Assembly: GCA_015232465.1 (NCBI GenBank)
Contig: JADFZO010000005.1
Span: 1-64,000, forward strand
Source of the DNA: Desulfamplus sp.
Lineage (GTDB): Bacteria > Desulfobacterota > Desulfobacteria > Desulfobacterales > Desulfobacteraceae
Direction: 5' to 3'
Length of the DNA: 64,000 bases
Made by a program: the position numbers and the translations under genes. Shown one piece after another: positions 35,939-56,748 of this stretch (within the stretch, counting starts at the first letter, position 1; each line of letters starts with the position of its first letter). The notes below the pieces were generated by a model. The model saw only the letters and a program-made list of their open reading frames with translations. It did no database searches and was not told the origin of the DNA.

Positions 35939-35967
35939 TTGACATCAATTGAATCAGGGGGTAGGAT
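35939..35967 (+). promoter_or_regulatory. Probable sigma70 promoter of the 2-oxoacid oxidoreductase/CoA-transferase operon
   Basis: TTGACA at 35939-35944, a 17-base spacer, then TAGGAT at 35962-35967. The leader to ATG 36077 is about 100 bases. A perfect palindrome begins on the last base pair of the -10 box, which suggests repression. No sigma54 (GG-N10-GC) match is present in this 372-base gap. Confidence 0.55.
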
Positions 35968-37216: not shown

Positions 37217-38504
37217 CTTTCTTAACACCAAACGCCCGCCAGTCTTCTGTCCTGGCTGCACACATGAGAGGATCACAAAAGCTGTTGATAGTGCATTTGT
37301 AAAGATGGGGCTTTTACCTGAAAATACAGTTATTGTAAGTGATATTGGCTGTTCTGGTCTTTTTGACACATTTTTTAATGTTCATGCTCTTCATGGTCTT
37401 CATGGTCGTGCTCTAACCTATGCTGCTGGCATTAAATTATCAAACCCTGCTCTAAATGTTATTGTTACAATGGGAGATGGGGGGCTTGGAATAGGAGGTG
37501 CTCATCTTCTTGCAGCTTGCAGAAAAAATCTTGATCTTACATTGATTATTCTTAACAACTTTAACTTTGGCATGACTGGTGGTCAATACTCTGTAACTAC
37601 GCCATCTAACGCTGTTGTTGGCTCTGAGTTTTTAAATCAAGCTGAAATTCCAATTGATGTTTGTTCAGTTGCTAAAAGTGCTGGTGCAACTTGGATAACA
37701 AGATGCTCTGGGCATGATGCAGCTTTGAGCGATATTTTGTGTGAAGCTATAAACCATAAAGGATTTTCAGTTGTTGAGACCTTAGGAATGTGTACAGGTC
37801 GATACACTAAACGCAATCAGCTTACCCCAAAGGTGATTGATGAGATGGTTGAGCATCTTCCAGCTTACAGAGGTGTTGTAGAAGAAAATCAGCGTCCTGA
37901 ATATGGTGATCAGTATAGAAAACTTGCTTCAGATAAAAAAAATTTTCCTGAACTTTTTAAGGTTGAAAAAAAGTTTGATCTCAAAGATGTAAAACGTCAA
38001 GAGATTGTAATTCTTGGCAGTGCTGGCATGAGAATTGTAACGGCTGGTGATATGGTCTGCTATGCTGCAATTTCAGCAGGTCTTAATGCTTCAATGAAAA
38101 ACGATTACAATATTACAGTTCTTCGCGGGCAATCTGTAAGTGAGATTATTCTATCGCCTGAGAAGATAGGTTATGCTGGTATTGAGTCTCCAACTGTGGT
38201 TATTGCCATAAGTGATGAGGGTGTTCAAAGAAGAGCAAAACTTTTTGGAAAACTTAGCCCATCAACTTTAGTGCTAAAAGAGAAAAGCGTCCCTATTCCT
38301 GAAACATCTGCAAATGTTGTTGAGATTGACTTTAAAGAGTATCAGATTAAAAAGCAGGATTGGGCTTTGGCATCTTTGGGCTTTATTGCATCAAGAGGGG
38401 AGGGGATAACAATGGAGATGCTCGACTTTGCCCTAAAATCACGGTTTAAACCAGCAGTTTATGACTCGGCAGTTGAGATTGTTAATAAATTAGCAAAGGT
38501 ATAA
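37209..38504 (+). CDS. 2-oxoacid:ferredoxin oxidoreductase beta-gamma fusion
   Basis: A 431-residue protein. Residues ~1-250 are the thiamine-diphosphate beta subunit: FCPGCTHERI (Cys14, Cys17, cluster ligands), DIGCSGLFD, HGRALTYAAGIKLSNP, and the ThDP/Mg motif MGDGGLGIGG ... LIILNN followed by FGMTGGQYS. Residues ~258-431 are a gamma-type domain (IVILGSAGMRIVTAGDMVCYAAISAGLNASMKNDY, SEIILSPEKIGYAGIESPTVVIAIS). In most bacteria these are separate genes. No ferredoxin-type delta subunit is encoded nearby. A perfect GGAGGTGATT precedes ATG 37209. Confidence 0.86.
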   Translation: MDSFLNTKRPPVFCPGCTHERITKAVDSAFVKMGLLPENTVIVSDIGCSGLFDTFFNVHALHGLHGRALTYAAGIKLSNPALNVIVTMGDGGLGIGGAHLLAACRKNLDLTLIILNNFNFGMTGGQYSVTTPSNAVVGSEFLNQAEIPIDVCSVAKSAGATWITRCSGHDAALSDILCEAINHKGFSVVETLGMCTGRYTKRNQLTPKVIDEMVEHLPAYRGVVEENQRPEYGDQYRKLASDKKNFPELFKVEKKFDLKDVKRQEIVILGSAGMRIVTAGDMVCYAAISAGLNASMKNDYNITVLRGQSVSEIILSPEKIGYAGIESPTVVIAISDEGVQRRAKLFGKLSPSTLVLKEKSVPIPETSANVVEIDFKEYQIKKQDWALASLGFIASRGEGITMEMLDFALKSRFKPAVYDSAVEIVNKLAKV

Positions 38505-38512
38505 AAACCATT

Positions 38513-39490
38513 ATGAACTTAAAACAGAATAAAGAGACTGACCTTAAAAGTGTGATAAGCACCTACGTAACCTCTGGTTGCCACCTCTCAATCGGAGGAT
38601 TTACAATCAACAGAAACCCTATGGCTGCTGTGTATGAGATAATCAGGCAGAAGATACAAGGGCTTCATATCTACGCCCACTCAAACGGACAGGGGGTTGA
38701 TGAGCTTATTGGAGGAGGCTGCGTATCATCTATAGAGATAGCTTATGCTGGAAGTGGTAAATTTGCATCAACTTGTATTCGATTTAAAAAAGCGGTTCAA
38801 GAAAATTTTATAAAAATAGAGGATTACTCCAACTATCAAATGACTTTAAGATTTTTAGCTGGCTCAATGGGTGTCCCTTTTTTGCCTACACGCTCATCTT
38901 TAGGAAGCGATATTATAAAGATATGGGGATTTTCTCCTGAAATGAGAAAAGAGAATTCTAAATTTCCTAATGATAAACTAAAGGTTATGGATAATCCGTT
39001 TGATAACTGGTGCGACACTCAAAAGGTTGTTGTTGTTCCTGCTATTAACCCTGATGTTACTATTTTGCATGTTCAAGAGGCTGATCTGCGTGGTAACTGC
39101 CGTATTCAAGGCTTATCTTTTGCTGATGTTGAACAGGCAAAATCAGCTAAACATTTGATTATAACATGCGAAAAACTATACAAGGGTGATGAGCTAAAGA
39201 TAGATTCAGATCGCACGCAGATTCCCTTTATCCATGTTGATGCTGTGGTTCACGCCCCTTGGGGAGCATACCCAACAGCTTGCTATAACTACTATGATTA
39301 CGATCCACGCTATCTTAAAGATTATGCTACTGCTGCAAAAGATGATGGACTTTATAACGATTATCTTAAAAAGTTTGTCTATGATTTAAATGATCATAAT
39401 GCTCTTTTAAAAGTGGTTGGTGATGAGCGTCTTAACACCATTAAAGCTGATCCAAGAACTGGTTATGCTGCAAATTTAGATAGGCGATAG
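38513..39490 (+). CDS. gctA: Glutaconate-type CoA-transferase subunit A
   Basis: A 325-residue class I CoA-transferase alpha subunit. VTSGCHLSIGGFTINRNPMAAVYEIIRQ, the long LRFLAGSMGVPFLPTRSSLGSDI loop and IPFIHVDAVVHAPWGAYPTACYNYYDYD are characteristic of GctA rather than acetoacetate-type enzymes. With subunit B it transfers CoA between acetyl- or other acyl-CoA and a C5 dicarboxylate. No 2-hydroxyglutaryl-CoA dehydratase genes are present, so glutarate activation, feeding the glutaryl-CoA dehydrogenase of this island, is more likely than the hydroxyglutarate fermentation role (inference). It follows the oxidoreductase genes by 8 bases. Confidence 0.88.
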   Translation: MNLKQNKETDLKSVISTYVTSGCHLSIGGFTINRNPMAAVYEIIRQKIQGLHIYAHSNGQGVDELIGGGCVSSIEIAYAGSGKFASTCIRFKKAVQENFIKIEDYSNYQMTLRFLAGSMGVPFLPTRSSLGSDIIKIWGFSPEMRKENSKFPNDKLKVMDNPFDNWCDTQKVVVVPAINPDVTILHVQEADLRGNCRIQGLSFADVEQAKSAKHLIITCEKLYKGDELKIDSDRTQIPFIHVDAVVHAPWGAYPTACYNYYDYDPRYLKDYATAAKDDGLYNDYLKKFVYDLNDHNALLKVVGDERLNTIKADPRTGYAANLDRR

Positions 39491-39505
39491 GAGATTTTTA
39501 AATTT

Positions 39506-40267
39506 ATGGACTACACACTAAAAGAGATGATGGCAATTGTTGCAGCACGCGAGATACGAAATGAAGATATAGTATTTTGCGGAACAGGAATATCAATGCT
39601 TGCAGCAATGGCAGCTAAAAATATCAATGCCCCTGAAAGTGTTATATTTTTTGAGACTGGTGCTATTGACTCCCAGCTTGAGGAGTTGCCCCTTGCTGTG
39701 GGCGACTCAAGGGTGATGTATCGCACATCTGCAAATGGAGGGCTTTTAGACTCCTTTGCCACAATGCAAAATCCAATTACAGGAAAGCATGTTGTGGGCA
39801 TTTTAGGGGCTGCTCAGATCGATAAATTTGGAAATCTGAACTCAACTGTAATTGGGGATTATTACTCTCCAAAAACACGATTTTCAGGAAGTGGCGGAGG
39901 GTGCGATGTTGCCTCTTTTGTTCCACGATCAATTATTTTTATGCAGCATGAAAAACGAAAATTTGTGCAAAAACTCGACTACTTAACAAGTCCAGGATAC
40001 TTAAATGGTGGAAATAGCAGAAAAGAGGCAGGGCTTTTAGATGGCGGACCTGTTATGGTCATAACCAATTTAGGTGTAATGCGATTTGATGATACCACAA
40101 AAGAGATGTATCTATCAGGTGTCTATCCCGGGGTTACACCACAAAAGATTTTAGATAACATGGAGTTTAATGTTGATATATCGCGTGTAAAAGAGGAGAT
40201 TCCCCCATCAGAAGAGGAGTTACGACTTCTTAGAGATAAGTGCGATAATCAGCGTCTAATTCTTTAA
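39506..40267 (+). CDS. gctB: Glutaconate-type CoA-transferase subunit B
   Basis: A 253-residue beta subunit. It carries the probable catalytic glutamate in FFETGAIDS (Glu50), the residue that forms the CoA-thioester intermediate in the Acidaminococcus enzyme (Glu54 there). SGSGGGCDVASF provides the oxyanion/CoA loop, and LLDGGPVMVITNLGVM closes the fold. It is paired with subunit A 15 bases upstream. The sigma54 activator gene follows after 28 bases on the same strand, so pathway and regulator may be co-expressed. Confidence 0.9.
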   Translation: MDYTLKEMMAIVAAREIRNEDIVFCGTGISMLAAMAAKNINAPESVIFFETGAIDSQLEELPLAVGDSRVMYRTSANGGLLDSFATMQNPITGKHVVGILGAAQIDKFGNLNSTVIGDYYSPKTRFSGSGGGCDVASFVPRSIIFMQHEKRKFVQKLDYLTSPGYLNGGNSRKEAGLLDGGPVMVITNLGVMRFDDTTKEMYLSGVYPGVTPQKILDNMEFNVDISRVKEEIPPSEEELRLLRDKCDNQRLIL

Positions 40268-40295
40268 ATAGGCTGTTTGTTGTGAGGATTTCAAT

Positions 40296-42101
40296 ATGTT
40301 ATCAGAACTTGGGCTTTTATCGTTAAGCGATATTTCAGATAAAAATTTCAGCGGATTGGGCTGGAGAACATTTAGCAAAGCACTACTTAATGCTTCGCCA
40401 AATGGAATTGCGGTTCTTGATATTAATTTAAATGTGATACTCTCAAACAAACTTGCCCAAGATAGTTTGGAGCTTTTCCCTGGCTCCATGCTATCTCCTA
40501 CGCTGCCAGAGCTTGCTGATTGTGCGAAATCGCTTCTTAACACCAGAGAGCCGATTAAAGGGGTTGTTGTAAAGCGTAATAACTCAAGTTATTCGATAGT
40601 GCTAAACCCTATAATGCACGAAAATAGCCTACTTGGGATTTTGTGCATTATACAAGATGTTACTGATATAGAGACAGTTACAAGTAGCATGTATTCATTT
40701 AAAGAGCTATCAATAGAGCTTGATACCATAATTGAATCAAGTAATGATGGATTATGGATATGCGATGGAAACGGCACTGTTCTTCGCATCAACCCTGCAT
40801 CTGAACGGTTTACTGGTGTTAAATCTTCTGATGTTGTGGGTAGAAATATGCGTGATATAGTCAAAGAGGGGTTGGTTGATCAATCTGTTACTTTAGAGGT
40901 TTTAAAAACAGGAAAAAAGGCAAATCTTATCCAAAAGACACGAACTGGAAAAGAGCTTTTTCTTACTGGAAATCCTGTATTTGATCACAATGGCAAGCTA
41001 TTTAGAGTTGTTGTAAATGAGCGAGATATTACAGAGATAAATGAGCTTCAAAGGGAGTTAGATGAAAAAGCTGCTTTAAATGCCCAGTATCGACAAGACC
41101 TCTTAGAGATGCAGATTGAAGAGACCCGCTCTATGAAGATAATTGCCAAAACTCCTGAATTTATGCGGATTGTTCAGCAGGCAGTAAAACTTGGCAGTGT
41201 TGACTCTACAATCTTAATTCTTGGCGAATCTGGCACAGGAAAAGGGGTAATTGCAGATTTAATCCACAAATACTCAAGCAGAAGCAGCGAGCCGATGATT
41301 AAGTTAAATTGCGGATCAATCCCTGAATCTCTTGTTGAGAGTGAGCTTTTTGGATACGAAAAAGGTGCATTTACTGGAGCAAAAACATCAGGAAAACCTG
41401 GCAAATTTGAGATGGCTGATAAAGGAGTTATCTTTCTTGATGAGGTTGCAGAGCTTCCCCTTGCATCGCAAGTAAAGCTATTGCGATTTCTTGAAGATGG
41501 GACAATCACAAGGGTTGGGGGCACTACTCAAAAAAAGGTTGATGTTAGGATCATTGCTGCAACCAACCGCGATCTAAAACAGATGATGGAGAAAAAGCTA
41601 TTTAGAAGTGATCTATATTATCGCCTAAATGTCATACCAATTACCATGCCCCCTTTAAGAGAGCGTAAAGAGTGCATAATTACAATGCTTCACCATTTCA
41701 TGGAGCAATCTTGCATTCGATATAAAAAAACGATGGTTACACTATCAAGAGAGGCTTTAGATGCACTTTTATCCTACTTTTACCCAGGCAATGTAAGGGA
41801 GCTTATAAATATTTGTGAAAGGTTGGTTGTGCTCTCAAATGATGGGCATATCACCTTTGATGATTTGCCATCCTCTGTGCGGGCATCTGCTCAGGCTAAA
41901 GAGCAAAATATTGAAACTGGCTGCGATCTTACAAAAGAGGGAGAGGGTGGAAAACTTCGTGAAATTATGGAGAGAGTTGAGATGCGAATCCTTCAAAATG
42001 CGTTGCAAATACATGGAACTCAAACTCTTGTTGCCAATTTTTTGGGGCTTAACCAATCAACAGTTGGACGAAAACTAAAAAAATATAACCTGTTAAGATA
42101 A
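40296..42101 (+). CDS. Sigma54-dependent transcriptional activator with two PAS domains
   Basis: A 601-residue enhancer-binding protein. Two PAS-like sensor domains (~20-125 and ~145-255; the second has WICDGNGTVLRINPASERFTG) connect by a short coiled coil to an AAA+ domain with Walker A GESGTGKG (~310), GAFTGA (~357) for sigma54 contact, Walker B VIFLDEVAELP and the LYYRLNVIPI sensor region. The C-terminal helix-turn-helix (LVANFLGLNQSTVGRKLKKYNLL) is of the TyrR-like kind. Small-molecule sensing through PAS rather than phosphorylation is expected, since no receiver domain is present. It is the natural candidate to drive the two divergent sigma54 promoters at 45.4 and 45.7 kb. Confidence 0.92.
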   Translation: MLSELGLLSLSDISDKNFSGLGWRTFSKALLNASPNGIAVLDINLNVILSNKLAQDSLELFPGSMLSPTLPELADCAKSLLNTREPIKGVVVKRNNSSYSIVLNPIMHENSLLGILCIIQDVTDIETVTSSMYSFKELSIELDTIIESSNDGLWICDGNGTVLRINPASERFTGVKSSDVVGRNMRDIVKEGLVDQSVTLEVLKTGKKANLIQKTRTGKELFLTGNPVFDHNGKLFRVVVNERDITEINELQRELDEKAALNAQYRQDLLEMQIEETRSMKIIAKTPEFMRIVQQAVKLGSVDSTILILGESGTGKGVIADLIHKYSSRSSEPMIKLNCGSIPESLVESELFGYEKGAFTGAKTSGKPGKFEMADKGVIFLDEVAELPLASQVKLLRFLEDGTITRVGGTTQKKVDVRIIAATNRDLKQMMEKKLFRSDLYYRLNVIPITMPPLRERKECIITMLHHFMEQSCIRYKKTMVTLSREALDALLSYFYPGNVRELINICERLVVLSNDGHITFDDLPSSVRASAQAKEQNIETGCDLTKEGEGGKLREIMERVEMRILQNALQIHGTQTLVANFLGLNQSTVGRKLKKYNLLR

Positions 42102-42202: not shown

Positions 42203-43954
42203 TCAATTTTGAGGGATTCCCTCGTCGCTCCAGCCTCTTAGTTGGTAGTAATCTTTTACAAGATACTCTACCTGTTCACTTGTGATCTCTTTGCCATCTT
42301 CTAATTTTTCACTGATCAGACGTTTAGGCAGGCGATCGTCTTTAAATGTCAGACCCTCTCTTATGTTGAATCTTCGAGTGTTGTCTGTAACTCTTGCTGC
42401 AACTGCCTGAAGCTCCTCTTTTGATAAGCTCATGCCAGTTGTCATCTCAATAATTTTTCCAAGCTCCTCCCATGGGTAGAAGTCTCTGTAAAATCGGCAC
42501 AAAATAAGGGTATCAAACAGGGTGCATCTATCCTCAAAGTCAATGAAAAGCTCAGCTTTATTCTCAATCTGATCAGGATCAATAACTCCGCTTAACTCTG
42601 GCTTGTAAAATGTGCTCCTAAGATGGCAGGCTCCCCTTGGGCTAACAGAATAGGCAAGCCCCATACCTTTTAAAGCCCTTGGATCATAGCCAGCAGGCTC
42701 AAGACCCTTTACATGCACAGCCTGATCCTCCATGCCAAGCTCTGCACTTGCAGCCTTAATGCCATCAGCAATAAGTCCGCCAAGCCCCTCTCGTCTTGCT
42801 ATTTTGTAGAGCAGTTCTGCTACAAGTTTTGCATCGCCGTATTGAAGTTTATCAGCGATCTTTCCTTGAAGAGATGCCTCAATAGCAAGTGCAGATAGAT
42901 TGCCTGCACTCATGGTATCCATGCCAAGACGGTCGCAGATGTCGTTGAGCCACGTTATATCTTCAATTGAATCTATCATGCAAAGACCGCCAAACGAGTA
43001 GATGGTCTCATATTCAGGACCCTCAATTTTAAGCCCTTTGTGCTCGCCCTCTTTGACAGTTGAGAGTTTTCCGCACCCCATAAAGCAGCTTATACAAGAT
43101 TTTGGCACAACATTTAGCCTCTCGTTCATGCTCTGGGCATTTATCTTCTCCCAATGCCCGCATGTCCCTTTTGACCAGTATCTTGTGGGAAATCCACCTG
43201 CTTTATTAAGAACCCCAACCATGACTGGCGTGCCTTGTGTCTTGTAAATGTTTGTTGCTGGGTGATCTTTAAACTCCTTGAAAATTTCGTTTGCATAGTT
43301 TTTGATGCGATCTTCATCATAAAACTCTCTTTTTGCGTTGCCGTGAAAAACAAGAGCTTTGATCTTTTTAGAGCCAAGCACAGCACCCATTCCAGTACGT
43401 CCAGCTGATCTCCAGTAGTCGTTCTCTACAACTGCAAACTTTACCAAGTTTTCGCCAGCATGACCTATAACCATAGCTCCGCAACCCTTTACACCGCAAC
43501 GCTCTTTGACCTTATCTTCAGTCTGATATGTATCCATACCCCAAAGATCAGAGGCGTTATGAAACTTGACTCCAGTATCAGAAATCTCAAGCCATACAGG
43601 CTCTTTAGATGCACCTTTGATAACAATTATATCATAGCCTGTTCGACTCATTGGAACTGCAACTCTTCCGCCTGAATATGACTCTGCGTAAAAGCCAGTT
43701 AAGGGGGATTTGCTAAATATACCATAACGGCAGCTCCCGTAAATTTTGCTGTCAGTTACAGGACCAAGAGCTATGATAAAATGGTTCTCTGGCGATAATG
43801 GATCAACTTTTGGAGGGTTTTTCTCCAGCAGAAGATGGGTTGCAAGACCTTTACCGCCAAGATATGCTTTTAATGTTGTATCATCTATTGACTCAACAGA
43901 TGTTTCCTGCTTGGTAACATCAATAGTGATAAGTTTTTGGAAAAATCCTTTCAT
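42203..43954 (-). CDS. aor: Tungsten-type aldehyde:ferredoxin oxidoreductase
   Basis: A 583-residue enzyme that oxidises aldehydes to acids with ferredoxin, using a tungstopterin. The N-terminus (KLITIDVTKQETSVESI..LKAYLGGKGLATHLL) and YAESYSGGRVAVPMSRTGYD are family hallmarks. The [4Fe-4S] ligands are CISCFMGC (Cys287, Cys290, Cys294) and Cys486 in DTLILCRFY. It lies 31 bases downstream of a GabT-type aminotransferase, so its aldehyde is probably the semialdehyde made by that enzyme: glutarate semialdehyde from 5-aminovalerate or succinate semialdehyde from GABA (inference). Transcribed from a predicted sigma54 promoter. Confidence 0.9.
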   Translation of the reverse strand: MKGFFQKLITIDVTKQETSVESIDDTTLKAYLGGKGLATHLLLEKNPPKVDPLSPENHFIIALGPVTDSKIYGSCRYGIFSKSPLTGFYAESYSGGRVAVPMSRTGYDIIVIKGASKEPVWLEISDTGVKFHNASDLWGMDTYQTEDKVKERCGVKGCGAMVIGHAGENLVKFAVVENDYWRSAGRTGMGAVLGSKKIKALVFHGNAKREFYDEDRIKNYANEIFKEFKDHPATNIYKTQGTPVMVGVLNKAGGFPTRYWSKGTCGHWEKINAQSMNERLNVVPKSCISCFMGCGKLSTVKEGEHKGLKIEGPEYETIYSFGGLCMIDSIEDITWLNDICDRLGMDTMSAGNLSALAIEASLQGKIADKLQYGDAKLVAELLYKIARREGLGGLIADGIKAASAELGMEDQAVHVKGLEPAGYDPRALKGMGLAYSVSPRGACHLRSTFYKPELSGVIDPDQIENKAELFIDFEDRCTLFDTLILCRFYRDFYPWEELGKIIEMTTGMSLSKEELQAVAARVTDNTRRFNIREGLTFKDDRLPKRLISEKLEDGKEITSEQVEYLVKDYYQLRGWSDEGIPQN

Positions 43955-43985: not shown

Positions 43986-45293
43986 CTATTTTGTAAGCTC
44001 TTTGAGACTCTCTTCAAGAATATTTAGACCTTTATCAAGCTGTTCATTGGTTATGACAAAAGGCATTAAGGTTCTGATAACATTGCCAAAATTGCCGCAT
44101 GAGAGCAAAATTAGCCCCTTATCGTAGCAGAGTTTTGTCAGCTTTTTTGCCTCATCTGAAGCAGGCTCTTTGGTCTTTCGGTCGCGAACAAGCTCAAGTC
44201 CAAGCATTGGACCTTTGCCCCTTACATCACCAATTATCTCATACGATTTTTGAAGCTCTAAGAACCGTTTTTGCAGAACTTCGCCAAGCTCTTTTGCACG
44301 ATCGAGCAATCTATCTTCAAAAAGAATCTCAAGAACAGCAAGAGCAGCACTGCAAGAGACAGGGTTGCCGCTGTATGTTCCGCCAAGACCGCCAATGTGC
44401 GGAATATCCATAAGCTCTTTTCTACCAGTTACAGCACTAAGCGGCATTCCACCAGCAAGGCTTTTTGCCTGTGTTATCATATCTGGAACAACTCCCCAAT
44501 GCTCAATTGCATACATTTTTCCTGTTCTTCCAGCACCAGCTTGAACCTCATCAAGAATAAGAAGGATTCCATGTTTTTTGCAGATATTGGCAAGTTTTGG
44601 GAAATACTCTTGAGGCGGAGTTACAAATCCACCTTCCCCTTGAATTGGCTCAACAATAACAGCAGCAGTAGATTCAGCAGCTACATTGGTGATGAAAAAA
44701 TCCTCTAAATGGTCAGCACAATGGGTATTGCATTTTGGATACTCAAGACCAAATGGGCATCTATAACAGTAAGGGTAGGGCATACGGTATATCTCTGGAG
44801 CATAGGGTCCAAATCCCAATTTATATGGTTTAACTTTGCTGGTGAGGGTCATGGTCAAAAGGGTTCGTCCATGAAAGCCATTTTCAAAGCAGATAATTGC
44901 AGGGCGTTTTGTCGCATATCTTGCAATTTTAACTGCATTTTCAACAGCTTCAGCACCGCTGTTTGCAAACATGGTCATCTTTTCAAAATCACCAGGTGCA
45001 AGATCATTTAGCTTAGTTGCAAGTTTTATATAAGATTCATACATACCCACATGAAAGCAGCTATGAATTAGCTTTTCTGCCTGTGATTTGATTGCAGCCA
45101 CAACCTTTGGGTGGCAATGACCAACATTATTGACCCCGATACCGCCTGCAAAGTCGATAAATTCGCGACCATCAACATCAGTCATAACAGCACCAGAGGC
45201 GTGGCTGATTATTGCTGGTGTCATGTTGGCAGGTCCTTGTGGAACACTCTTTTTCCTTAGATTTAAATATTGTTCAGATTGATTGTTGGTCAT
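43986..45293 (-). CDS. gabT: 4-aminobutyrate/5-aminovalerate-type aminotransferase
   Basis: A 435-residue class III PLP aminotransferase. The PLP lysine is Lys277 (TQAKSLAGGMP), preceded by ILDEVQAGAGRTG with Asp248, and NSGAEAVENAVKIARY binds the phosphate. It transfers the amino group of an omega-amino acid to 2-oxoglutarate. GABA and 5-aminovalerate cannot be told apart by sequence alone. A four-cysteine segment (CYRC at 176-179 and Cys188, Cys192) may hold metal; mammalian GABA aminotransferase has a bridging iron-sulfur cluster on a CxxC pair, though equivalence is unproven. GGGAG precedes ATG 45293. Confidence 0.88.
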   Translation of the reverse strand: MTNNQSEQYLNLRKKSVPQGPANMTPAIISHASGAVMTDVDGREFIDFAGGIGVNNVGHCHPKVVAAIKSQAEKLIHSCFHVGMYESYIKLATKLNDLAPGDFEKMTMFANSGAEAVENAVKIARYATKRPAIICFENGFHGRTLLTMTLTSKVKPYKLGFGPYAPEIYRMPYPYCYRCPFGLEYPKCNTHCADHLEDFFITNVAAESTAAVIVEPIQGEGGFVTPPQEYFPKLANICKKHGILLILDEVQAGAGRTGKMYAIEHWGVVPDMITQAKSLAGGMPLSAVTGRKELMDIPHIGGLGGTYSGNPVSCSAALAVLEILFEDRLLDRAKELGEVLQKRFLELQKSYEIIGDVRGKGPMLGLELVRDRKTKEPASDEAKKLTKLCYDKGLILLSCGNFGNVIRTLMPFVITNEQLDKGLNILEESLKELTK

Positions 45294-45401
45294 TTGGTTT
45301 ATCTCCCTTTTTGGCGTTTTAATAAAAATTGCTAAAATATTATGATAGTTTCTAAATAATTGGATTTTGATAACTTAAAAATTCTCTTTTGAAGGAGTTT
45401 T

Positions 45402-45418
45402 AGCAAGAGCTATGCCAT
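45402..45418 (-). promoter_or_regulatory. Sigma54 promoter for gabT-aor
   Basis: Read leftward, the sequence is TGGCATAGCTCTTGCT (45417 down to 45402). This has GG and GC separated by exactly ten bases and a full TTGCT -12 box. The expected start near 45391 leaves a ~98-base leader before gabT. Confidence 0.72.
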
Positions 45419-45524
45419 TATGGTTTCAGGATTAAATAGACAAAATTATGTAAGATAGCTTTGAGGGTTCAATCTTAAATTTATATTTAATGTAGGGGTA
45501 TTGAGTTAATCTCTACCATCAAAT

Positions 45525-45538
45525 ATGCTTTTTTGCAT
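45525..45538. promoter_or_regulatory. Candidate activator (UAS) site 1, ATGC-N6-GCAT
   Basis: ATGC at 45525-45528 and GCAT at 45535-45538 flank TTTTTT. It lies between two divergent sigma54 promoters. A degraded copy with the same spacing follows at 45544-45557 (only the GCAT half intact). Confidence 0.5.
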
Positions 45539-45672
45539 TTTATATCTATTTTTGCATATCTTAGTCTTGATGCTCTCTTGATAGCTATTTATTGTAATTA
45601 AATTACAACATGTTATGATAAATATCTTGTTGTGAATTATCTTCTTTAATTTCTAAAATCATAGAGATTATT

Positions 45673-45686
45673 ATGCACTTTTGCAT
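45673..45686. promoter_or_regulatory. Candidate activator (UAS) site 2, ATGC-N6-GCAT
   Basis: ATGC at 45673-45676 and GCAT at 45683-45686 flank ACTTTT. The flanking T on each side and the NNTTTT centre are the same as site 1, whose centre is 148 bp away (about 14 helical turns). It sits roughly 76 bp ahead of the expected rightward transcription start. Confidence 0.5.
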
Positions 45687-45729
45687 TAAATCTTTGATAA
45701 ATAACACCTTAACTTCTTAAATATTAAGC

Positions 45730-45746
45730 TGGCTTGGAATTTGCAA
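45730..45746 (+). promoter_or_regulatory. Sigma54 promoter for the TRAP transporter/glutamate dehydrogenase/glutaconyl-CoA operon
   Basis: TGGCTTGGAATTTGCA: GG at 45731-45732 and GC at 45743-45744 with ten bases between, and complete TGGC and TTGCA boxes. The expected start near 45756 gives a ~97-base leader before dctP, nearly the same as the divergent promoter. Confidence 0.72.
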
Positions 45747-45852
45747 ATTTTGGCTCTTAATATTTTTAGGTAATGGTTTATGAAAATATTTTTTTTATTA
45801 AACCATGATTAATCAAAACAAATTTTAAAAAAAATGTTAAGGAGAGTAATTT

Positions 45853-46896
45853 ATGAAGCATCTACTAAGATCAATTGCAATTGCAGCCGTTACTACCACA
45901 CTTTTGCTGGCAGGATTTACATTTGGCTTTTATGGGCAAGCCCATGCAGAGAAAACCTACAAGTTCACCATGCAAAATATGTTTTCGTTAAACCACCCAA
46001 TAACCATTGCTGTAGAGAAGATGGGAAAAGATATTAAAGCTGAGAGTAATGGTCAGATCGATATTCAGATTTTGCCATCAGGAGCTTTAGTTGGCGGACC
46101 AAATATTTTTGAGAGCGTAGGCAACGGTGCAATCAATATGGGTACAAGCTGCTCATGTTACCATGACGGAATACTTCCAGTTGCAGCCACAGCATTTGCT
46201 CTTCCTGGTGATCCAAGGGGCGTTGATCAGATAATTGATTTTATATACAAAGATGAGGTTTTAAAGTTCTACAGAGATGCGTACGCTAAGGTTAATGTAT
46301 TTTACGCAGCTCCAATGGTAATGGACGGTTACACTATTGTCTCTAAAAAGCCTATTCAGACTTGGGAAGATTTGAAAAAACTTAAAGTTCGCGCATCTGG
46401 AACCATTGCAAAGACACTCCAAAAAATGGGCATTCCAACTGTATTTATCCCATTTTCAGAGATTTATGTTGCACTATCAAGAGGAACTATTGATGCTGAA
46501 ATAAGTGGAAATCATGCTGAGAGCTTTTTAGCTGGAACTTATGAGGTTGCCAAATATCAGACCACTCCTGAAATCTCTGGTGCTCAAAATTGCGAAGTTA
46601 TCATGAATTTAGATAGCTGGAAGGAACTTCCTGACAATTTAAAGGCAATATTTGAGAAAAATCTAAAGAGCTGCTCACTTCAGGTTGCAGAGCTTTTTGC
46701 TGCTGAAAATAAAGATGTAAAGGCTAAGATGGAGGCAAAAGGGGCACAATATACTGAACTATCTAAAGATGTTATGGAAAAATGGCTCGCAACAGCGATT
46801 GCTATGTGGAGCGAGGATCTTTCAAAAGACCCACTCTCTGCACAATATATTGAGCTTGTTAAAAAAGACCTAAAGAGCAGGGGCTATGATTTGTAA
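45853..46896 (+). CDS. dctP: TRAP transporter periplasmic solute-binding protein (DctP family)
   Basis: A 347-residue protein with a signal peptide (basic KHLLR start, hydrophobic core, cleavage after AHA near residue 32). The mature part has the DctP pattern: HPITIAVEKMGKDIKAESNGQIDIQILPSGALVGGPNIFESV, and DLKKLKVRASG with the arginine that usually binds a carboxylate. It captures an organic acid in the periplasm. The ligand is not readable; glutarate, 5-aminovalerate, GABA or glutamate fit the downstream genes. AAGGAG at 45839-45844 supports ATG 45853. It is the first gene behind a sigma54 promoter. Confidence 0.92.
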   Translation: MKHLLRSIAIAAVTTTLLLAGFTFGFYGQAHAEKTYKFTMQNMFSLNHPITIAVEKMGKDIKAESNGQIDIQILPSGALVGGPNIFESVGNGAINMGTSCSCYHDGILPVAATAFALPGDPRGVDQIIDFIYKDEVLKFYRDAYAKVNVFYAAPMVMDGYTIVSKKPIQTWEDLKKLKVRASGTIAKTLQKMGIPTVFIPFSEIYVALSRGTIDAEISGNHAESFLAGTYEVAKYQTTPEISGAQNCEVIMNLDSWKELPDNLKAIFEKNLKSCSLQVAELFAAENKDVKAKMEAKGAQYTELSKDVMEKWLATAIAMWSEDLSKDPLSAQYIELVKKDLKSRGYDL

Positions 46897-46937
46897 TAGT
46901 TAAGTTGGTTTTGCGTTTTGCATTATCCCCCTAAAAT

Positions 46938-46977
46938 CCCTCTTATTTGAAAATAATTTGCAAAAATAAGAGGGTTT
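46938..46977 (+). terminator. Intra-operon hairpin between dctP and dctQ
   Basis: CCCTCTTATTT (46938-46948) pairs perfectly with AAATAAGAGGG (46964-46974), followed by TTT. Its location after the binding-protein gene fits partial termination or 3' protection that raises dctP mRNA above the membrane subunits, a common arrangement in binding-protein operons. Confidence 0.6.
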
Positions 46978-47027
46978 AATAATAACGCCCTACTTTTTGG
47001 GAATCAATTTTTAGGAAGCTATTAAAT

Positions 47028-47540
47028 ATGCAATCCTTAGAAAAATTTATAAATTTAGTTGAAAAGACCAACGAAAAGATAGGAAAAGCCTCAGCTTATC
47101 TTATCTTTGTATTTATGGCTCTCATGGTTTATGAAGTTATAGCTCGATATTTTTTTGAAAGCCCAACAATATGGGCACATGAGATATGCGGATTTATCTT
47201 TGCAGCTTATATCGCACTTACTGGTGGTTGGGTGCTGCTTGAAAAGGGGCATGTTGCTGTTGATATAATCTATCAATATTTTCCACGTAAATTAAAATGT
47301 TTTGCCGATATTGCAGTATCAATAACTGGTTTTTTCATGTTTGGCATTCTATTTTGGCAAGGTTATAAATTTGCATGGCACGCCATAAAGACAAATCAGC
47401 ACTCACACACCCTTTTTGCACCTCCTATGTGGCCTGTAAAAATTATGATTTCAATTGGTGCCCTGCTTTTTATCATACAGCTTGCTGCTAATATTTCACG
47501 CAGTGTCATTGATTATAAAAATGAAGGGGGGGCACGATGA
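47028..47540 (+). CDS. dctQ: TRAP transporter small membrane subunit (DctQ family)
   Basis: A 170-residue protein with four hydrophobic segments, including AYLIFVFMALMVYEVIARYFFESPTIWAHEICGFIF and GWVLLEKGHVAVDIIYQ, both typical DctQ phrases. It couples the binding protein to the large subunit in the inner membrane. dctM starts within its stop codon (ATGA overlap). Confidence 0.9.
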   Translation: MQSLEKFINLVEKTNEKIGKASAYLIFVFMALMVYEVIARYFFESPTIWAHEICGFIFAAYIALTGGWVLLEKGHVAVDIIYQYFPRKLKCFADIAVSITGFFMFGILFWQGYKFAWHAIKTNQHSHTLFAPPMWPVKIMISIGALLFIIQLAANISRSVIDYKNEGGAR

Positions 47541-48859
47541 GTCCAGTATTTGTAGTTGCTTTAATGTTTTTAGCTGTAATTGTGCTATTTGTTATTGGAA
47601 CTCCTGTAGCCTTTACCTTAGGCGTTGTAGGAATTGGAACACTTCTTATTATGAATGGTCCTCATTTCCTACTTATATTGCCCCCATCAATTCTTGAAGT
47701 TATGACAAGCATTATTTTGCTTGCTATTCCGCTTTTTATATTTATTGGCTGTATGCTTGAAAAATCAGGCATTGCTGATGAAATCTTTGATATGATTTAT
47801 AAATGGTTAGGTCCTGTCCCCGGTGGTCTTGCAATTGGAACGGTCTTTATCTGTGTTGTATTTGCTGCTATGGTTGGAGTTGTTGGTGCTGCAACAGTAA
47901 CTATGGGTCTTATTGCACTTCCAGCAATGCTTAAACGCAACTACAAATCAACTCTTGCGGTTGGTTGTATCTCTGGCGGCGGTGCATTAGGATTTTTAAT
48001 CCCACCAAGTGTAACCATGATTGTCTATGCTTCGCTCTCTAACCTATCTATTGGTAAGATGTTTTTAGCTGGAGTTGTGCCTGGACTTCTACTCTCATCT
48101 CTATTTATAATTTATATCTTTGTACGAAGCATAATTGATCCTACCCTTGCCCCGCCTATCCCAAAAGAGGAGCGTGCAACATGGGGTGAGAAGTTTGCAG
48201 CTCTTAAAAATCTATTTATGCCATTTTTGCTTATATTTTCAGTTATGGGCACAATCTTTTCAGGAATGGCAACACCAACTGAATCTGCTGCTGTTGGTGC
48301 ATTGGTCTCTATAATAATTGTTCTTATAAGAGATAAATCGATCTCACGCACTCTAAAAGTTATTGCCCAAGCTGCTGAAAAGTCAGCTCATCTTACCAGC
48401 ATGGTGCTCTGGATTATCATCGGCTGTCTTGCATTCTCTGCTGTAGTCAACACATTGGGGCTTCCAAATATTGTAAAGGAATTTATTGACTCTATGGGGC
48501 TTAATCCATGGGTAGTCTTAATAGCCATGCAGCTTAGTTTCTTCCTGCTTGGAATGGTTATGGACGATCTGCCAATCATAATGATCACTGTTCCAATATA
48601 TGTGCCTATAATTACACTCTTAGGATTTGATCCGCTCTGGTTTGGTATTTTGTTTATTGTAAATATGCAGATGGCATACTTGACCCCGCCTTTTGGCTTT
48701 GTGCTCTTTTACATGAAAGGGGTTGTTCCACCGCAAATATCAATGGGGCATATCTACCGATCTGTCTGGCCATTTATTGGGCTTCAAGCTCTTTGCCTCA
48801 TACTTATTATGCTTTTTCCTGAACTGGTGTTGTGGTTACCCTCTATTGCAAATATGTGA
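47537..48859 (+). CDS. dctM: TRAP transporter large permease subunit (DctM family)
   Basis: A 440-residue membrane protein with about 12 helices that carries the Na+-coupled transport path. Typical motifs are IGTPVAFTLGVVGIGTLLIM, AIPLFIFIGCMLEKSGIADEIFDMIYKWLGPVPGGLA, GAVTVTMG-like VGAATVTMGLIALP, SGGGALGFLIPPSVTMIVYASLS and ATPTESAAVGAL. Uptake driven by Na+ would share the ion with the decarboxylase pump encoded downstream (inference). The glutamate dehydrogenase gene follows after 63 bases. Confidence 0.93.
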   Translation: MSPVFVVALMFLAVIVLFVIGTPVAFTLGVVGIGTLLIMNGPHFLLILPPSILEVMTSIILLAIPLFIFIGCMLEKSGIADEIFDMIYKWLGPVPGGLAIGTVFICVVFAAMVGVVGAATVTMGLIALPAMLKRNYKSTLAVGCISGGGALGFLIPPSVTMIVYASLSNLSIGKMFLAGVVPGLLLSSLFIIYIFVRSIIDPTLAPPIPKEERATWGEKFAALKNLFMPFLLIFSVMGTIFSGMATPTESAAVGALVSIIIVLIRDKSISRTLKVIAQAAEKSAHLTSMVLWIIIGCLAFSAVVNTLGLPNIVKEFIDSMGLNPWVVLIAMQLSFFLLGMVMDDLPIIMITVPIYVPIITLLGFDPLWFGILFIVNMQMAYLTPPFGFVLFYMKGVVPPQISMGHIYRSVWPFIGLQALCLILIMLFPELVLWLPSIANM

Positions 48860-48922: not shown

Positions 48923-51900
48923 ATGATGGAAAATCCTACAGAAAGTTACTCTAATAGTGCTGAAATATTTAGCAGGCATGGCTCTATATCAAAATCAAGC
49001 TATATTATTGATAAGGCACAAAGTGTCAATCTTGATACACGTATTTTGTATGAGGCTGTAATTGATCTTGCATCAGAGGGGCTTGTAACTGCCTCTTCTA
49101 TAAACATGGCAGCTGGAATTTTGCTTGATGAGCTTGATCTGCCAAACTACTTTTTTGAAAACATTAAAAAAGAGTCTTTAAAACACATCCTCTCCTCTAT
49201 TGCTACAAGCATGAGATTTCAAAATGGTAAGTTCATACTTTATGGGCTTGTTGCAGATATTGATTTTAATTTAGAGATTGCAACTGACGCACAGCGTGTA
49301 AGAATTGCCACTGAAGAGACAAGGGATAGATTAGAAATTATCTTAGCTCCATTAATGTCTGGGCATAGACGCGAATACCACTATAGCCCAAAAAGTCGCT
49401 ACTACACCTACATTATAAGACCAGAGACAGTCCAAGATTTTACCAAACAAGAGTTTGAGGAGTCTCGCTTTTTGTTTAACCTTGCAGGTGATTACAAATC
49501 AACACCAGAGCCAACAAGAAGACGATATGAGAGTGTCCTTAAACTGTGCGAAGAGTCTGTAACTCCTTTGATAGAGTCTTTTAATCTGCCAGCTACTGGT
49601 GAGACTCGCCTGATGTTTAACAGCGATTTTCCAACTCCTCAGTTGCCTGTGTTTAGAAAGTTATTTGAGGATCATGGAATTATTTTAAACAGAGCCTACT
49701 GGGAGCCATATTGGGGAAAATCATCTGTCCCATCATCAATCTGCTCTTTGTATGTGCTTGGCGAACTCTCAATGAAAAAAGAGAGGCTATTAATCAATGA
49801 TCTTTGTGCCTATCTATCGTTTAGAGTGAGCGAGATTACAGAGCTATATGTGCAGGGTAAAATTACATTTCAAGAGATGCTTTTTGCTGGCAATGCCATA
49901 GATTTTGTCCAGATGTTCATCTATAAAGAGAGCGAAAATGTTACAGACAGAGAGATAATGGCAAGCCTATCCAATGATGACTACAAAGATGCCTTTGCTG
50001 CAAGAGTTCACACATCAAATAAGTCAACATACACAGCAGAAGCTATTATGGATACTGTTAAAAGACACCCTGATCTTATAAAATTTCTATTTGAGATTTT
50101 TGATAACAGATTTAACCCTGAGATTATCAACAGAAATACAGGCAATGTAAAGTTGGCAGATGAGGCAAAAAGGGCAGTAAGAGATGAGAAGTTAAAGCAA
50201 AAAGCCATTGAGTTTGACAAGATGATTTCAGCCAAATTTATGGATTATAAGCCTGGATACGATATTTTTAATTTTATGTTTAAATTTGTATCTTGCACCC
50301 TTAAAACCAACTTTTATAAGGCTGAAAAACGCTCTTACTCCTTTAGGTTTGATGGCTCTATCCTTGATCCACTTGTCTTTAATCAATTTGTTTATGGTAT
50401 TTTTTATGTCAATGGTCATTATGCTTGTGGAACGCATCTTAGGGCAAGCGACATTGCAAGAGGTGGTTTGAGGCTAATTCGGGTAACTCCATCTAACCAT
50501 CATGCTGAACTTGATAATGTTGTTTTACTAAACTACGCACTTGGACCAAAGGCTCAAAGGCTCAAACATAAAGATATATGTGAGAGCGGCTCAAAAGGTG
50601 TAGTTGTTCCTCATGCTGATTATGCAACAGGTTACAGCCTTGATGCACTATATGACTACACAGAGGGTATCATGGATTTGATGCTTGGGCATGAGAGCAT
50701 TATTGATTATCACGGCAAATCAGAGATGATATTTTTTGGACCAGATGAGGGGACAGCTCCGCTTATGGACTCAATATCATACCACGCAAAAGAGCGAGGT
50801 TACAAATATTGGAGAACCATCACAACTGGAAAGAGCTTTGGGATTCCCCATGACACCTATGGCATTTTTTCAAATGGAGATACCTTTGGTCTGTTTGACA
50901 GGGAGGATCATGGAACAGAGTTGCAGATAAATGGAGAATCTGTTGTTCTAACCAAAGACATGGATCAAATAATGGCAAATTTTCTTGAGAAGAGCGGCGT
51001 ATCCTCTACTAAAGATAACCCAATTGCAACAAGCGGTATGACAACTACCTGTATTATGAGTTCATTTAGAACTATGATTGGCCACTATGGAGCAAAAGAG
51101 GAAAACCTCAATCTTATGATGACAGGCGGACCAGATGGCGATTTAGGGGCAAATCAGATTCAGTGCTATAAAGGTAAAATCTGCTTAATTATTGATGGCG
51201 GCTCAATTTTGTTTGATCCAAATGGTCTTGATAAAAATGAGCTTATGAAACTTGCATTTATGAGACACTCTTCACCTCGTGCAAATTCTCTTCAATTTCC
51301 GCTTGATAAGTTAAGTTCAGATGGATTTATGGTTCCAATGAAATCTAAAGAGATCACCCTGCCAGATGGAACATTTATTGAAAATGGGGCTATGTTTCAC
51401 CGCACATTTTTAACAGACCCTGCAAATAGGCGATTTATAGCTAAGGCAAATATTGAGGCATTTATCCCATGTGGAGGGTTTAAAGATACAATTAACCATG
51501 CTAATGTTCACAGTTTTGTCAATAACTTTAAAGAGTTAAAGTTTATTGTTGAGGGTGCAAATGTTTTTTTTGATGATGCCTCAAGACGCTACATTGCAAC
51601 ATCAACAAATATAAAGCAGATAAAAGACTCAACAGCAAACAAGGGCGGAGTCTTTAGTAGCTCAATTGCAGAGGTTTTAACTGCATTTTTGTTAGGCGAA
51701 GATTATGAGTCAAAGCTACTTAAAGATATTGCAACAAAGTGGGCATTGACAAAAGATATTATGCTTCTTGTTCAAAAATACTCATCAGCAGAGACGGGAA
51801 TGCTTATAAAAATTCATGATTCAAACCCATCTGTGCCCCTATTTGAGCTATCTGAAAAGACAAGTGAGCAGATTTTTGCACTCCAAGATATTTGTGAAAA

Positions 51901-52150
51901 GAACCTTGCAAATATAATTGAAAACGAAAAGGCTGTTTGGAACATTATGGAGAACTATATTCCGCAAATTCTTATTACCAAACTTGGACGTGAGGCTATT
52001 ATGAATACCCTTAACTCTGATGAACTTATTGCTTATAGAAACGCGATTATAACCAAAAAGCTCTCTTCAATGGCGTTTTATAAGCATGGTCTTGAGTGGG
52101 ATAAATTTATGAAAAAGGTAGATAAAGATTTTACAGTGATATTTGCTTAA
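48923..52150 (+). CDS. gdh: Large NAD-dependent glutamate dehydrogenase (GDH2-like, ~115 kDa class)
   Basis: A 1075-residue enzyme, far longer than the ~450-residue hexameric type. The catalytic core (~450-900) shows GTHLRASDIARGGLRLIRV, NYALGPKAQRLKHKDICESGSKGVVVPHADY with the catalytic lysine in GSKG, FGPDEGTAPLMD, MTGGPDGDLGANQI as the nucleotide loop, and EAFIPCGGFKDTIN. The N-terminal ~430 residues are the regulatory extension of this class. It oxidatively deaminates glutamate to 2-oxoglutarate. In this operon it could recycle the amino acceptor of the GabT-type enzyme and release NADH. GAGGAG precedes ATG 48923 (ATG 48926 is also possible). Next gene at 33 bases. Confidence 0.9.
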   Translation: MMENPTESYSNSAEIFSRHGSISKSSYIIDKAQSVNLDTRILYEAVIDLASEGLVTASSINMAAGILLDELDLPNYFFENIKKESLKHILSSIATSMRFQNGKFILYGLVADIDFNLEIATDAQRVRIATEETRDRLEIILAPLMSGHRREYHYSPKSRYYTYIIRPETVQDFTKQEFEESRFLFNLAGDYKSTPEPTRRRYESVLKLCEESVTPLIESFNLPATGETRLMFNSDFPTPQLPVFRKLFEDHGIILNRAYWEPYWGKSSVPSSICSLYVLGELSMKKERLLINDLCAYLSFRVSEITELYVQGKITFQEMLFAGNAIDFVQMFIYKESENVTDREIMASLSNDDYKDAFAARVHTSNKSTYTAEAIMDTVKRHPDLIKFLFEIFDNRFNPEIINRNTGNVKLADEAKRAVRDEKLKQKAIEFDKMISAKFMDYKPGYDIFNFMFKFVSCTLKTNFYKAEKRSYSFRFDGSILDPLVFNQFVYGIFYVNGHYACGTHLRASDIARGGLRLIRVTPSNHHAELDNVVLLNYALGPKAQRLKHKDICESGSKGVVVPHADYATGYSLDALYDYTEGIMDLMLGHESIIDYHGKSEMIFFGPDEGTAPLMDSISYHAKERGYKYWRTITTGKSFGIPHDTYGIFSNGDTFGLFDREDHGTELQINGESVVLTKDMDQIMANFLEKSGVSSTKDNPIATSGMTTTCIMSSFRTMIGHYGAKEENLNLMMTGGPDGDLGANQIQCYKGKICLIIDGGSILFDPNGLDKNELMKLAFMRHSSPRANSLQFPLDKLSSDGFMVPMKSKEITLPDGTFIENGAMFHRTFLTDPANRRFIAKANIEAFIPCGGFKDTINHANVHSFVNNFKELKFIVEGANVFFDDASRRYIATSTNIKQIKDSTANKGGVFSSSIAEVLTAFLLGEDYESKLLKDIATKWALTKDIMLLVQKYSSAETGMLIKIHDSNPSVPLFELSEKTSEQIFALQDICEKNLANIIENEKAVWNIMENYIPQILITKLGREAIMNTLNSDELIAYRNAIITKKLSSMAFYKHGLEWDKFMKKVDKDFTVIFA

Positions 52151-52183: not shown

Positions 52184-53347
52184 ATGGATTTCAAACTCTC
52201 AAAAGAACTTGAGATGCTTAAAAAAGCAGTTAGTGAATTTGCAAAAAAGAAGATAGCACCAAATGCTGACCAGTGGGATCATGAGCATCACTTCCCATAC
52301 AAAGAGGCAATAAGACCAATGGGAGAGCTTGGCTTTTTTGGAACAGTTATTCCAGAAGAGTATGGCGGAGATAATATGGGTTGGCTTGCTGCTATGATTG
52401 TAACTGAAGAGATTGCAAAAGCCTCATCATCATTAAGGGTTCAGGTAAATATGCAGGTTCTTGGCTGCGGATACACCATATACAAATATGGCACAGAAGA
52501 GGCAAAACAAAAGTATGTTGAAAAGCTCTGCACTGCTGAGTATGTAGGAGGCTTTGGAATAACAGAGCCTGACGCTGGCTCTGATGTTATGGCAATGGCC
52601 TCAACTGCTGAGGATAAGGGCGATCACTGGCTACTCAACGGCTCAAAAACATGGATTTCAAATGCCAACTTTGCTGATGCGCTTATCTATTACGCCTACA
52701 CAGACAAATCTGCTGGCAGCAAGGGGTTATCTGCATTTGTGATTGAGCCTAAGAACTTTGCTGGTATCACGACCTCATCATTGGAAAAAATGGGTTCTCA
52801 CGCATCTCCTACTGGAGAGGTCTTTTTAGATAATGTAAAGGTTCCAAAAGAGAATATACTTGGCAAACCAGGGGACGGGGCAAAGATCGTATTTAGTTCG
52901 CTCAATCAGACCCGTCTATCTGCTGCTGCTGGAGGAGTTGGTCTTGCTCAGGCGTGCCTTGATGTTGTAACAAAATATTGCAATGAGCGTCAGCAGTTTG
53001 GTAAAAAAATTGGTGAGTTTCAGATGAATCAAGATATGATTGCACAGATGGCAACTGACATTGATGCTGCTCGTCTTTTGGTTTACAAAGCTGCATGGGA
53101 AAAAGATCAAGGAGAGCTAAATAATGGGCTTAGTGTTGCTAAGGCTAAATATTTTGTTGGTGAGACTGTAACCAAATGTGCAAATTATGCAATGCGAATA
53201 ATGGGAGCTTATGGCTACTCAACTGAATATCCAATTGCAAGATATTACAGAGATGCCCCAACTTACTACATTGTTGAAGGTTCAACCAATATCTGCAAAT
53301 GGATAATTGCCCTTGATCAACTTGGAATCAGAAAGGCAAATAGATAG
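52184..53347 (+). CDS. Glutaryl-CoA dehydrogenase, predicted non-decarboxylating type
   Basis: A 387-residue acyl-CoA dehydrogenase with GGFGITEPDAGSD and SKTWISNA FAD-binding motifs and the catalytic base Glu365 in IVEGSTNI. Arg85 (SSLRVQVNMQ) matches the arginine that binds the substrate gamma-carboxylate in glutaryl-CoA dehydrogenases. The residue before the catalytic Glu is Val364. Decarboxylating enzymes have Tyr there, and a Tyr-to-Val exchange is the reported key to the non-decarboxylating Desulfococcus enzyme (established knowledge). The position of human Glu87 is Ala78. Product should therefore be glutaconyl-CoA, passed to the decarboxylase encoded just downstream. Confidence 0.85.
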   Translation: MDFKLSKELEMLKKAVSEFAKKKIAPNADQWDHEHHFPYKEAIRPMGELGFFGTVIPEEYGGDNMGWLAAMIVTEEIAKASSSLRVQVNMQVLGCGYTIYKYGTEEAKQKYVEKLCTAEYVGGFGITEPDAGSDVMAMASTAEDKGDHWLLNGSKTWISNANFADALIYYAYTDKSAGSKGLSAFVIEPKNFAGITTSSLEKMGSHASPTGEVFLDNVKVPKENILGKPGDGAKIVFSSLNQTRLSAAAGGVGLAQACLDVVTKYCNERQQFGKKIGEFQMNQDMIAQMATDIDAARLLVYKAAWEKDQGELNNGLSVAKAKYFVGETVTKCANYAMRIMGAYGYSTEYPIARYYRDAPTYYIVEGSTNICKWIIALDQLGIRKANR

Positions 53348-53396
53348 ATAATTTTGTATAAGTTACCACAATTAATCTAAGATTTAGAATTATGTA

Positions 53397-53418
53397 GGGG
53401 CGTAGCGTGCTACGCCCT
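53397..53418. repeat. Intergenic hairpin GGGCGTAGC/GCTACGCCC
   Basis: GGGCGTAGC (53398-53406) and GCTACGCCC (53409-53417) form a perfect 9-bp stem with a two-base centre, flanked by G-T and A-T extensions and followed by TTTAAAATT. It lies in the 114-base gap before the biotin carrier gene. It may be an attenuator or a divergent member of the intergenic hairpin family of this region. Confidence 0.55.
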
Positions 53419-53461
53419 TTAAAATTAAAAAAATTTAACTAAAAGTTAAGGAGAAAAAATC

Positions 53462-53677
53462 ATGTCTGAAGATATAGTTGCCCCATTGGCTGGAAAAATT
53501 ATTGCCATAAATATTGAAGCTGGTCAAAAGGTTGAGGAAGATGAGGAGATTTTTATAATTGAGGCTATGAAGATGGAGACATCTATCTATGCACCTTGCG
53601 ATGGAACAATAAAGGCTATCAAGGTGAAAAAAGGTGATTCAGTTGAAGAGGATGCCATACTTGGAACCATAGAGTAA
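53462..53677 (+). CDS. gcdC: Biotin carrier subunit of glutaconyl-CoA decarboxylase (minimal form)
   Basis: A 71-residue protein that is only a biotinyl domain: APLAGKIIAINIEAGQKV, IIEAMKMETSIYAP with the biotinylated Lys37, and GTIKAIKVKKGDSVEEDAILGTIE. Classical GcdC proteins are longer because an Ala/Pro-rich linker precedes this domain; here no linker exists. It carries CO2 from the alpha subunit to the membrane beta subunit. AAGGAG precedes ATG 53462. Gene order gcdC-gcdA-gcdD-gcdB is compact. Confidence 0.88.
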   Translation: MSEDIVAPLAGKIIAINIEAGQKVEEDEEIFIIEAMKMETSIYAPCDGTIKAIKVKKGDSVEEDAILGTIE

Positions 53678-56723: not shown

Positions 56724-56748
56724 GTAGAGACGCACTGTGCGTCTCTAC
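56724..56748. terminator. Hairpin at the end of the glutaconyl-CoA decarboxylase operon
   Basis: GTAGAGACGCAC (56724-56735) and GTGCGTCTCTAC (56737-56748) are perfect complements about a single base. The position between convergent units fits a bidirectional terminator. The stem shares AGAGACGCAC with the elements at 42147 and 61211. Confidence 0.7.

Follow-up and report, generated by a model that had tools for sequence, protein, structure and literature searches.

Divergent operons controlled by σ54 and a cognate activator have been described at the orp1/orp2 locus of Desulfovibrio vulgaris (PMC3897727; PMC4641369). In the Clostridiales, the activator PrdR controls proline reduction, which is a source of 5-aminovalerate, and its operator is TGT-N10-12-ACA (PMC6615313). 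In Bacilli, genes for 4-aminobutyrate aminotransferase are reported to be under σ54 control, as reflected in the enrichment of COG0160 (PMC12316311). We analyzed a 64,000-nucleotide stretch of the Desulfamplus sp. contig JADFZO010000005.1 (hereafter the window), in which the genes for an aminotransferase (gabT) and an aldehyde:ferredoxin oxidoreductase (aor) diverge from a transporter operon across a gap at 45294-45852 (Table 1). A first-pass annotation had placed outward-facing σ54 promoters in this gap and proposed that both arms answer to one signal and belong to a single pathway. From the sequence comparisons below, we consider it very probable that the gap is a bidirectional σ54 control region served by one activator and that both arms form one omega-amino-acid regulon, with 5-aminovalerate as the likely substrate.

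Table 1. Coordinates of the control region and of the genes around it, in window positions.
Feature	Position	Strand	Remarks
σ70-like promoter before the 36077 operon	35939..35967	+	TTGACA-17-TAGGAT; consensus match only
2-oxoacid:ferredoxin oxidoreductase and glutaconate-type CoA-transferase genes	36077..40267	+	upstream of the activator gene
σ54 activator	40296..42101	+	two PAS-like stretches, AAA+ with GAFTGA, Fis-type HTH; proposed palindrome reader
Aldehyde:ferredoxin oxidoreductase (aor)	42203..43954	-	minus arm
gabT-type aminotransferase	43986..45293	-	minus arm; TIGR00700, 562.7 bits (cut-off 506.65)
σ54 promoter (-24/-12), gabT-aor arm	45402..45417	-	TGGCATAGCTCTTGCT; exact TGGC-N7-TTGCT; predicted start ~45391
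UAS1a, palindrome	45524..45539		TATGCTTTTTTGCATT; 140 bp to minus start, 224 bp to plus start
UAS1b, degenerate palindrome	45543..45558		19 bp from UAS1a; 2 mismatches to ATGC-N6-GCAT
UAS2, palindrome	45672..45687		TATGCACTTTTGCATT; 76 bp to plus start, 288 bp to minus start
σ54 promoter (-24/-12), dctP arm	45730..45745	+	TGGCTTGGAATTTGCA; exact TGGC-N7-TTGCA; predicted start ~45756
dctP, dctQ, dctM (TRAP transporter)	45853..48859	+	plus arm
Large NAD-type glutamate dehydrogenase-like protein	48923..52150	+	plus arm; PF00208, PF05088
Acd, non-decarboxylating glutaryl-CoA dehydrogenase	52184..53347	+	plus arm; NF045552, 787.6 bits (cut-off 470); 3mpi, E 1e-213
Small biotin-carrier ORF, likely decarboxylase subunit	53462..53677	+	EAMKMET; sequence reading
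Glutaconyl-CoA decarboxylase A	53707-55440	+	3gf3, E 5e-225
Glutaconyl-CoA decarboxylase B	55586-56707	+	TIGR01109, 502.7 bits
Terminator-like hairpin, end of plus arm	56724..56748	+	11-bp stem, then T-rich tail

The two promoter elements lie where they had been placed, both are exact, and both are conserved in 15 relatives; TGGCATAGCTCTTGCT and TGGCTTGGAATTTGCA alike contain GG-N10-GC together with the TGGC and TTGCW boxes. Setting the GC at -13/-12 to predict the transcription starts gave leaders of 98 nt on the minus strand (start 45391 to ATG 45293) and 97 nt on the plus strand (start 45756 to ATG 45853), and a Shine-Dalgarno sequence precedes both ATGs. The first-pass annotation had remarked on leaders of close to 98 bases, which is correct for the window, but equal lengths are not conserved among relatives (the gabT leader in L083 is about 75 nt); because the relatives differ in this respect, the near-equality looks like coincidence. 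The genome encodes rpoN (PF04552 at G000:C22, E 9.7e-62).

A σ54 match alone proves little because the relaxed motif (≤2 mismatches) occurs in the window at chance level (440 found against 424 expected). Thus, we dropped the presence of the motif as proof in itself and relied on conservation to decide. Exact matches number 183 in the 3.02-Mb genome, so that about 0.03 would be expected in the 559-bp gap; the window contains four, two of which are inside genes. An outward-facing pair arose in none of 400 dinucleotide shuffles of the window gap and in 0-0.5% of shuffles at the individual loci, and the pair together with the palindrome described below was absent from all 400 shuffles at every locus. 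With a σ54 weight matrix built from relatives only, excluding the window, the minus-strand site ranked first and the plus-strand site second over both strands (18.4 and 16.4 bits; the next match scored 14.0). The gap also has boxes resembling σ70 promoters, 5 of them against an expectation of 3.9, which is a chance frequency.

To compare gene neighborhoods, we gathered relatives with the gabT protein and then with the activator protein. Fifteen further genomes of the family, spanning several genera, have gabT and a second operon in divergent orientation, and all 15 have a σ54 site toward each arm despite divergence of the surrounding DNA. Between the promoters we found a palindrome that had gone unnoticed in the first-pass annotation, with the core ATGC-N6-GCAT and the consensus TATGCA-N4-TGCATA. 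One to three exact copies of the core lie between the promoters in 16 of 16 genomes, and none lies elsewhere in the gap in these genomes. A blind alignment of seven gaps, in which mean column identity was 40%, placed 21 of its 32 invariant columns within the -12/-24 elements and the palindrome half-sites. When the window was scored with a palindrome matrix derived from six relatives, the window itself being left out, UAS2 ranked first and UAS1a second in the 64 kb (20.1 and 15.9, with the next best at 10.9); column-permuted matrices gave a mean of 0.1 hit at the score level of the window copies. At 14 of 15 loci, an exact copy has a partner palindrome, often degenerate, at a distance of 18 or 19 bp, and 19 of the 20 offsets counted between 14 and 40 bp are 18 or 19. 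The conserved palindromes in the window are 76-288 bp from the predicted starts, a placement suited to upstream activator sites (~80-250 bp). Some loci count against the common pattern: L208 has a single exact palindrome in an unusually wide gap, and L215 and L216 have weaker copies only. In L064 and L205, all copies are close together. Searching the window's own genome with up to two mismatches returned 141 places, none of them an exact match to the full consensus; this search was too loose to define the regulon and was dropped.

IHF sites are used by many looping systems. A single match to the IHF consensus (TATCAAAGATTTA, 45687..45699, minus strand) lies in the window gap, between UAS2 and the plus promoter. 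It is not kept in the gaps of relatives, and its function is doubtful.

As the first-pass annotation had stated, the island contains a σ54 activator gene; we identified its product by PF00158 (227.9 bits) and PF02954 (32.1 bits), and the GAFTGA motif is present. To extend the comparison out of sample, we looked at relatives of the activator in other families within the same order and found palindromes scoring at least 13 bits in 19 of 20, against 10 palindrome hits in 1.21 Mb of control loci around unrelated activators. In one activator relative (L262, 45% identity), the palindrome was not found. Nearly all palindrome carriers have the recognition-helix region TQ...NQST[VI][AG]RK, and distant activators that sit beside gabT homologues without the palindrome have a recognition helix of another type. 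The genome encodes more than 20 σ54 activators, any other of which could bind the palindromes. The best explanation of the co-occurrence, in our reading, is that the palindromes are bound by the activator encoded in the island.

Some of the palindrome-free loci with distant activator/gabT pairs carry σ54 sites of their own, as at L073:12338-12660 (TGGCACGCTTATTGCT) and L076:11440-11790 (TGGTCTGCAAGTTGCA). At another such pair (L078:8319-8620), repeated GGTG-N8-CACC palindromes accompany a σ54-like sequence (TGGCATAGATTTAGCA) upstream of gabT, which hints at a sister activator that reads a separate operator.

The activator gene is the last part of an operon at 36077-42101 whose CoA-transferase matches 1poi (E 4e-68). 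Before this operon, we found neither a σ54 site nor a palindrome, and auto-activation of the activator was dropped for this reason. The operon has only the σ70-like promoter listed in Table 1, which makes it probable that synthesis of the activator does not depend on the switch it operates. The earlier proposal that both arms respond to one signal is supported by the conserved promoter pair and the shared palindromes, with the qualification that the CoA-transferase/activator operon lacks these signals. The strongest evidence for a common signal comes from the shared candidate activator sites. Among nine congeners searched, several of them incomplete genomes, none had a close homologue of the activator, while L083, from another genus, matches the island proteins (36077-56707) at 75-89%; the distribution is patchy, and the island was possibly transferred.

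Other arrangements retain the palindromes. Loci with one promoter keep the same palindromes with the same activator. In L070, from another family, an activator with 47% identity is divergent from gabT, and the gap holds two palindromes and CGGCATATCTTTTGCT; L217 and L223 likewise have palindromes between divergent activator and gabT genes. L066 encodes a TctCA (tripartite tricarboxylate) transporter in an operon that is preceded by palindromes and a σ54 site (TGGCATTAAACGTGCA) and runs on into gabT and aor. L069, whose gabT is 73% identical, shows neither signal, and the 20 kb examined there contain no homologue of the activator. The plus arms of relatives are often without acd and the decarboxylase (gcd) genes and carry other transporters or front-end enzymes, and in many relatives CoA-transferase genes follow the transporter.

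Palindromes, mostly with a σ54 site, also precede other front ends. These comprise a hydantoinase B-type enzyme in L214, octopine dehydrogenase-type and SBP_bac_3 proteins in L208, an MttB-type methyltransferase in L243, a glutamate dehydrogenase in L261, and ABC-type binding proteins in L245, L253, and L256. Such varied front ends may mean that different substrates feed one core. We regard as reasonably probable a regulon that extends across the clade, in which one activator family would read TATGCA-N4-TGCATA, usually in tandem 18-19 bp apart, and the σ54 cassette would join a constant core, made up of the aminotransferase and usually also the aldehyde oxidoreductase, to front ends that are exchangeable (TRAP and tripartite tricarboxylate transporters, ABC-type binding proteins, glutamate dehydrogenase, methyltransferase, and hydantoinase-type and octopine-dehydrogenase-type enzymes), the shared inducer being 5-aminovalerate or a close relative. 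What was established computationally is where the sites lie, that they are conserved, that they co-occur with the activator, and which gene families are present.

Anaerobic breakdown of 5-aminovalerate proceeds through glutarate semialdehyde, glutarate, glutaryl-CoA, and glutaconyl-CoA to crotonyl-CoA. The island encodes together the predicted functions for this order of steps: transamination by an aminotransferase of the GABA/5-aminovalerate type, aldehyde oxidation, CoA activation, non-decarboxylating glutaryl-CoA dehydrogenation, and glutaconyl-CoA decarboxylation. The gene families of the two arms and the CoA-transferase fit one route, in agreement with the single pathway that had been proposed, and this route is most likely 5-aminovalerate to crotonyl-CoA, the substrate being assigned from these families. 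The acd and decarboxylase genes run in the same direction as the transporter genes up to the terminator-like hairpin. Control by the plus promoter of genes 6-11 kb downstream would presume read-through. A GC-rich hairpin (GGGCGTAGCGTGCTACGCCC, 53393-53425) lies between acd and the biotin-carrier ORF; it might be a repeat element, or it might reduce the read-through that reaches the decarboxylase genes. In the vicinity of the island, though not part of it, 61266-62897 encodes an L-glutamate gamma-semialdehyde dehydrogenase (TIGR01236, 764.7 bits), and a LysR-type regulator gene adjoins it.

In the mechanism that we infer, which covers binding, looping, σ54 dependence, the inducer, distal read-through, and the substrate, σ54-RNA polymerase would be held closed at both outward promoters until the PAS-type sensor part of the activator is switched on by a signal from catabolism, probably an intermediate or the substrate itself. 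The activator would bind TATGCA-N4-TGCATA at the tandem pair, which is separated from the minus start by about 140 bp, and at the single site, 76 bp away from the plus start, loop to either promoter, and open it using ATP. The minus output would be the aminotransferase and aldehyde oxidoreductase, and the plus output the transporter, glutamate dehydrogenase, glutaryl-CoA dehydrogenase, and glutaconyl-CoA decarboxylase; together, they would constitute one regulon for anaerobic omega-amino acid breakdown.

The spacing of the palindromes would also suit separate responses of the two arms, in which the minus promoter would depend on the tandem site and the plus promoter on the single site, perhaps through different activators: UAS1 lies closer to the minus start, at 140 bp, and UAS2 closer to the plus start, at 76 bp, and the genome has many activators to offer. 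We think this improbable because one consensus is common to all sites, the sites are clustered in L064 and L205, and one-promoter loci retain the same sites with the same activator. Perfect palindromes are typical of dimeric repressors too, so they might instead bind another local regulator (a repressor or other HTH protein) while an activator encoded elsewhere serves the σ54 promoters. This is very unlikely: the palindrome tracks the island's activator across genera and families despite differing neighbor genes, its presence follows the activator's recognition-helix type, and the stretch of the window from the activator through gabT to the transporter shows no other regulator gene. To the idea that the σ54-like strings are coincidental and that transcription really starts at σ70 promoters, we assign next to no weight; the background frequency of the relaxed motif in the window and the σ70-like boxes in the gap speak for it, but both sites are conserved in 16 genomes, the outward pair never arose in the 400 shuffles of the window gap, and an independent matrix ranks the sites first and second.

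The identity of the substrate is the point on which an alternative carries more weight. The same control region may respond to 4-aminobutyrate or another omega-amino acid, with the glutaryl-CoA genes handling a separate input, for example glutarate or lysine; the aminotransferase model takes its name from 4-aminobutyrate, and the frequent absence of acd and gcd from the plus arms of relatives, which have other transporters or front-end enzymes, is compatible with this. We hold this to be possible but unlikely, given that in the window the acd and decarboxylase genes are collinear with the transporter up to the terminator, that glutaconate-type CoA-transferase genes are in the island, and that many relatives have CoA-transferase genes after the transporter. 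Our preferred reading is a bidirectional control region read by one activator, with 5-aminovalerate as the likely substrate.

This analysis turns a pattern spotted by eye into a testable regulon of one activator, one operator, and two promoters for a predicted anaerobic 5-aminovalerate pathway. It provides a sequence signature for finding and annotating such catabolic islands, helps to predict the cargo of the otherwise generic TRAP or ABC transporters in them, and, in its divergent layout, offers a natural test case of one enhancer acting on two σ54 promoters. In the open-access literature, we found no description of this operator, regulon, or pathway in sulfate reducers; within that literature, divergent σ54 operons are already known, while the operator and regulon seem to be undescribed.

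Among described systems, orp1/orp2 shares with this locus a sulfate-reducing host, outward σ54 promoters around a shared control region with candidate activator sites between them, and an activator encoded in the locus. The genes, activator, and operator are different, and functional IHF sites lie between the orp promoters, whereas there is one IHF-like match here and it is not conserved. PrdR (NF041552) is the nearest named activator model, and both proteins have AAA+ and Fis-type HTH domains. We rejected the identification of the activator as PrdR because it scores 448.9 against a cut-off of 795 and because the operators differ: TATGCA-N4-TGCATA resembles the PrdR operator in overall span only. 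The targets here would consume 5-aminovalerate, whereas those of PrdR make it, the layout here is divergent, and proline reductase is not among the identified island genes. With Bacilli, the locus shares an enzyme class under σ54, in a different phylum; that comparison gave us no sign of a related operator or of a transporter arm in divergent orientation. Known enzymes of anaerobic glutarate and glutaryl-CoA metabolism (Acd, 3mpi; GcdA, 3gf3; Gct, 1poi) match the plus-arm and CoA-transferase proteins strongly; the island differs in linking them to a TRAP transporter as well as to an aminotransferase and an aldehyde oxidoreductase, with a shared σ54 control region.
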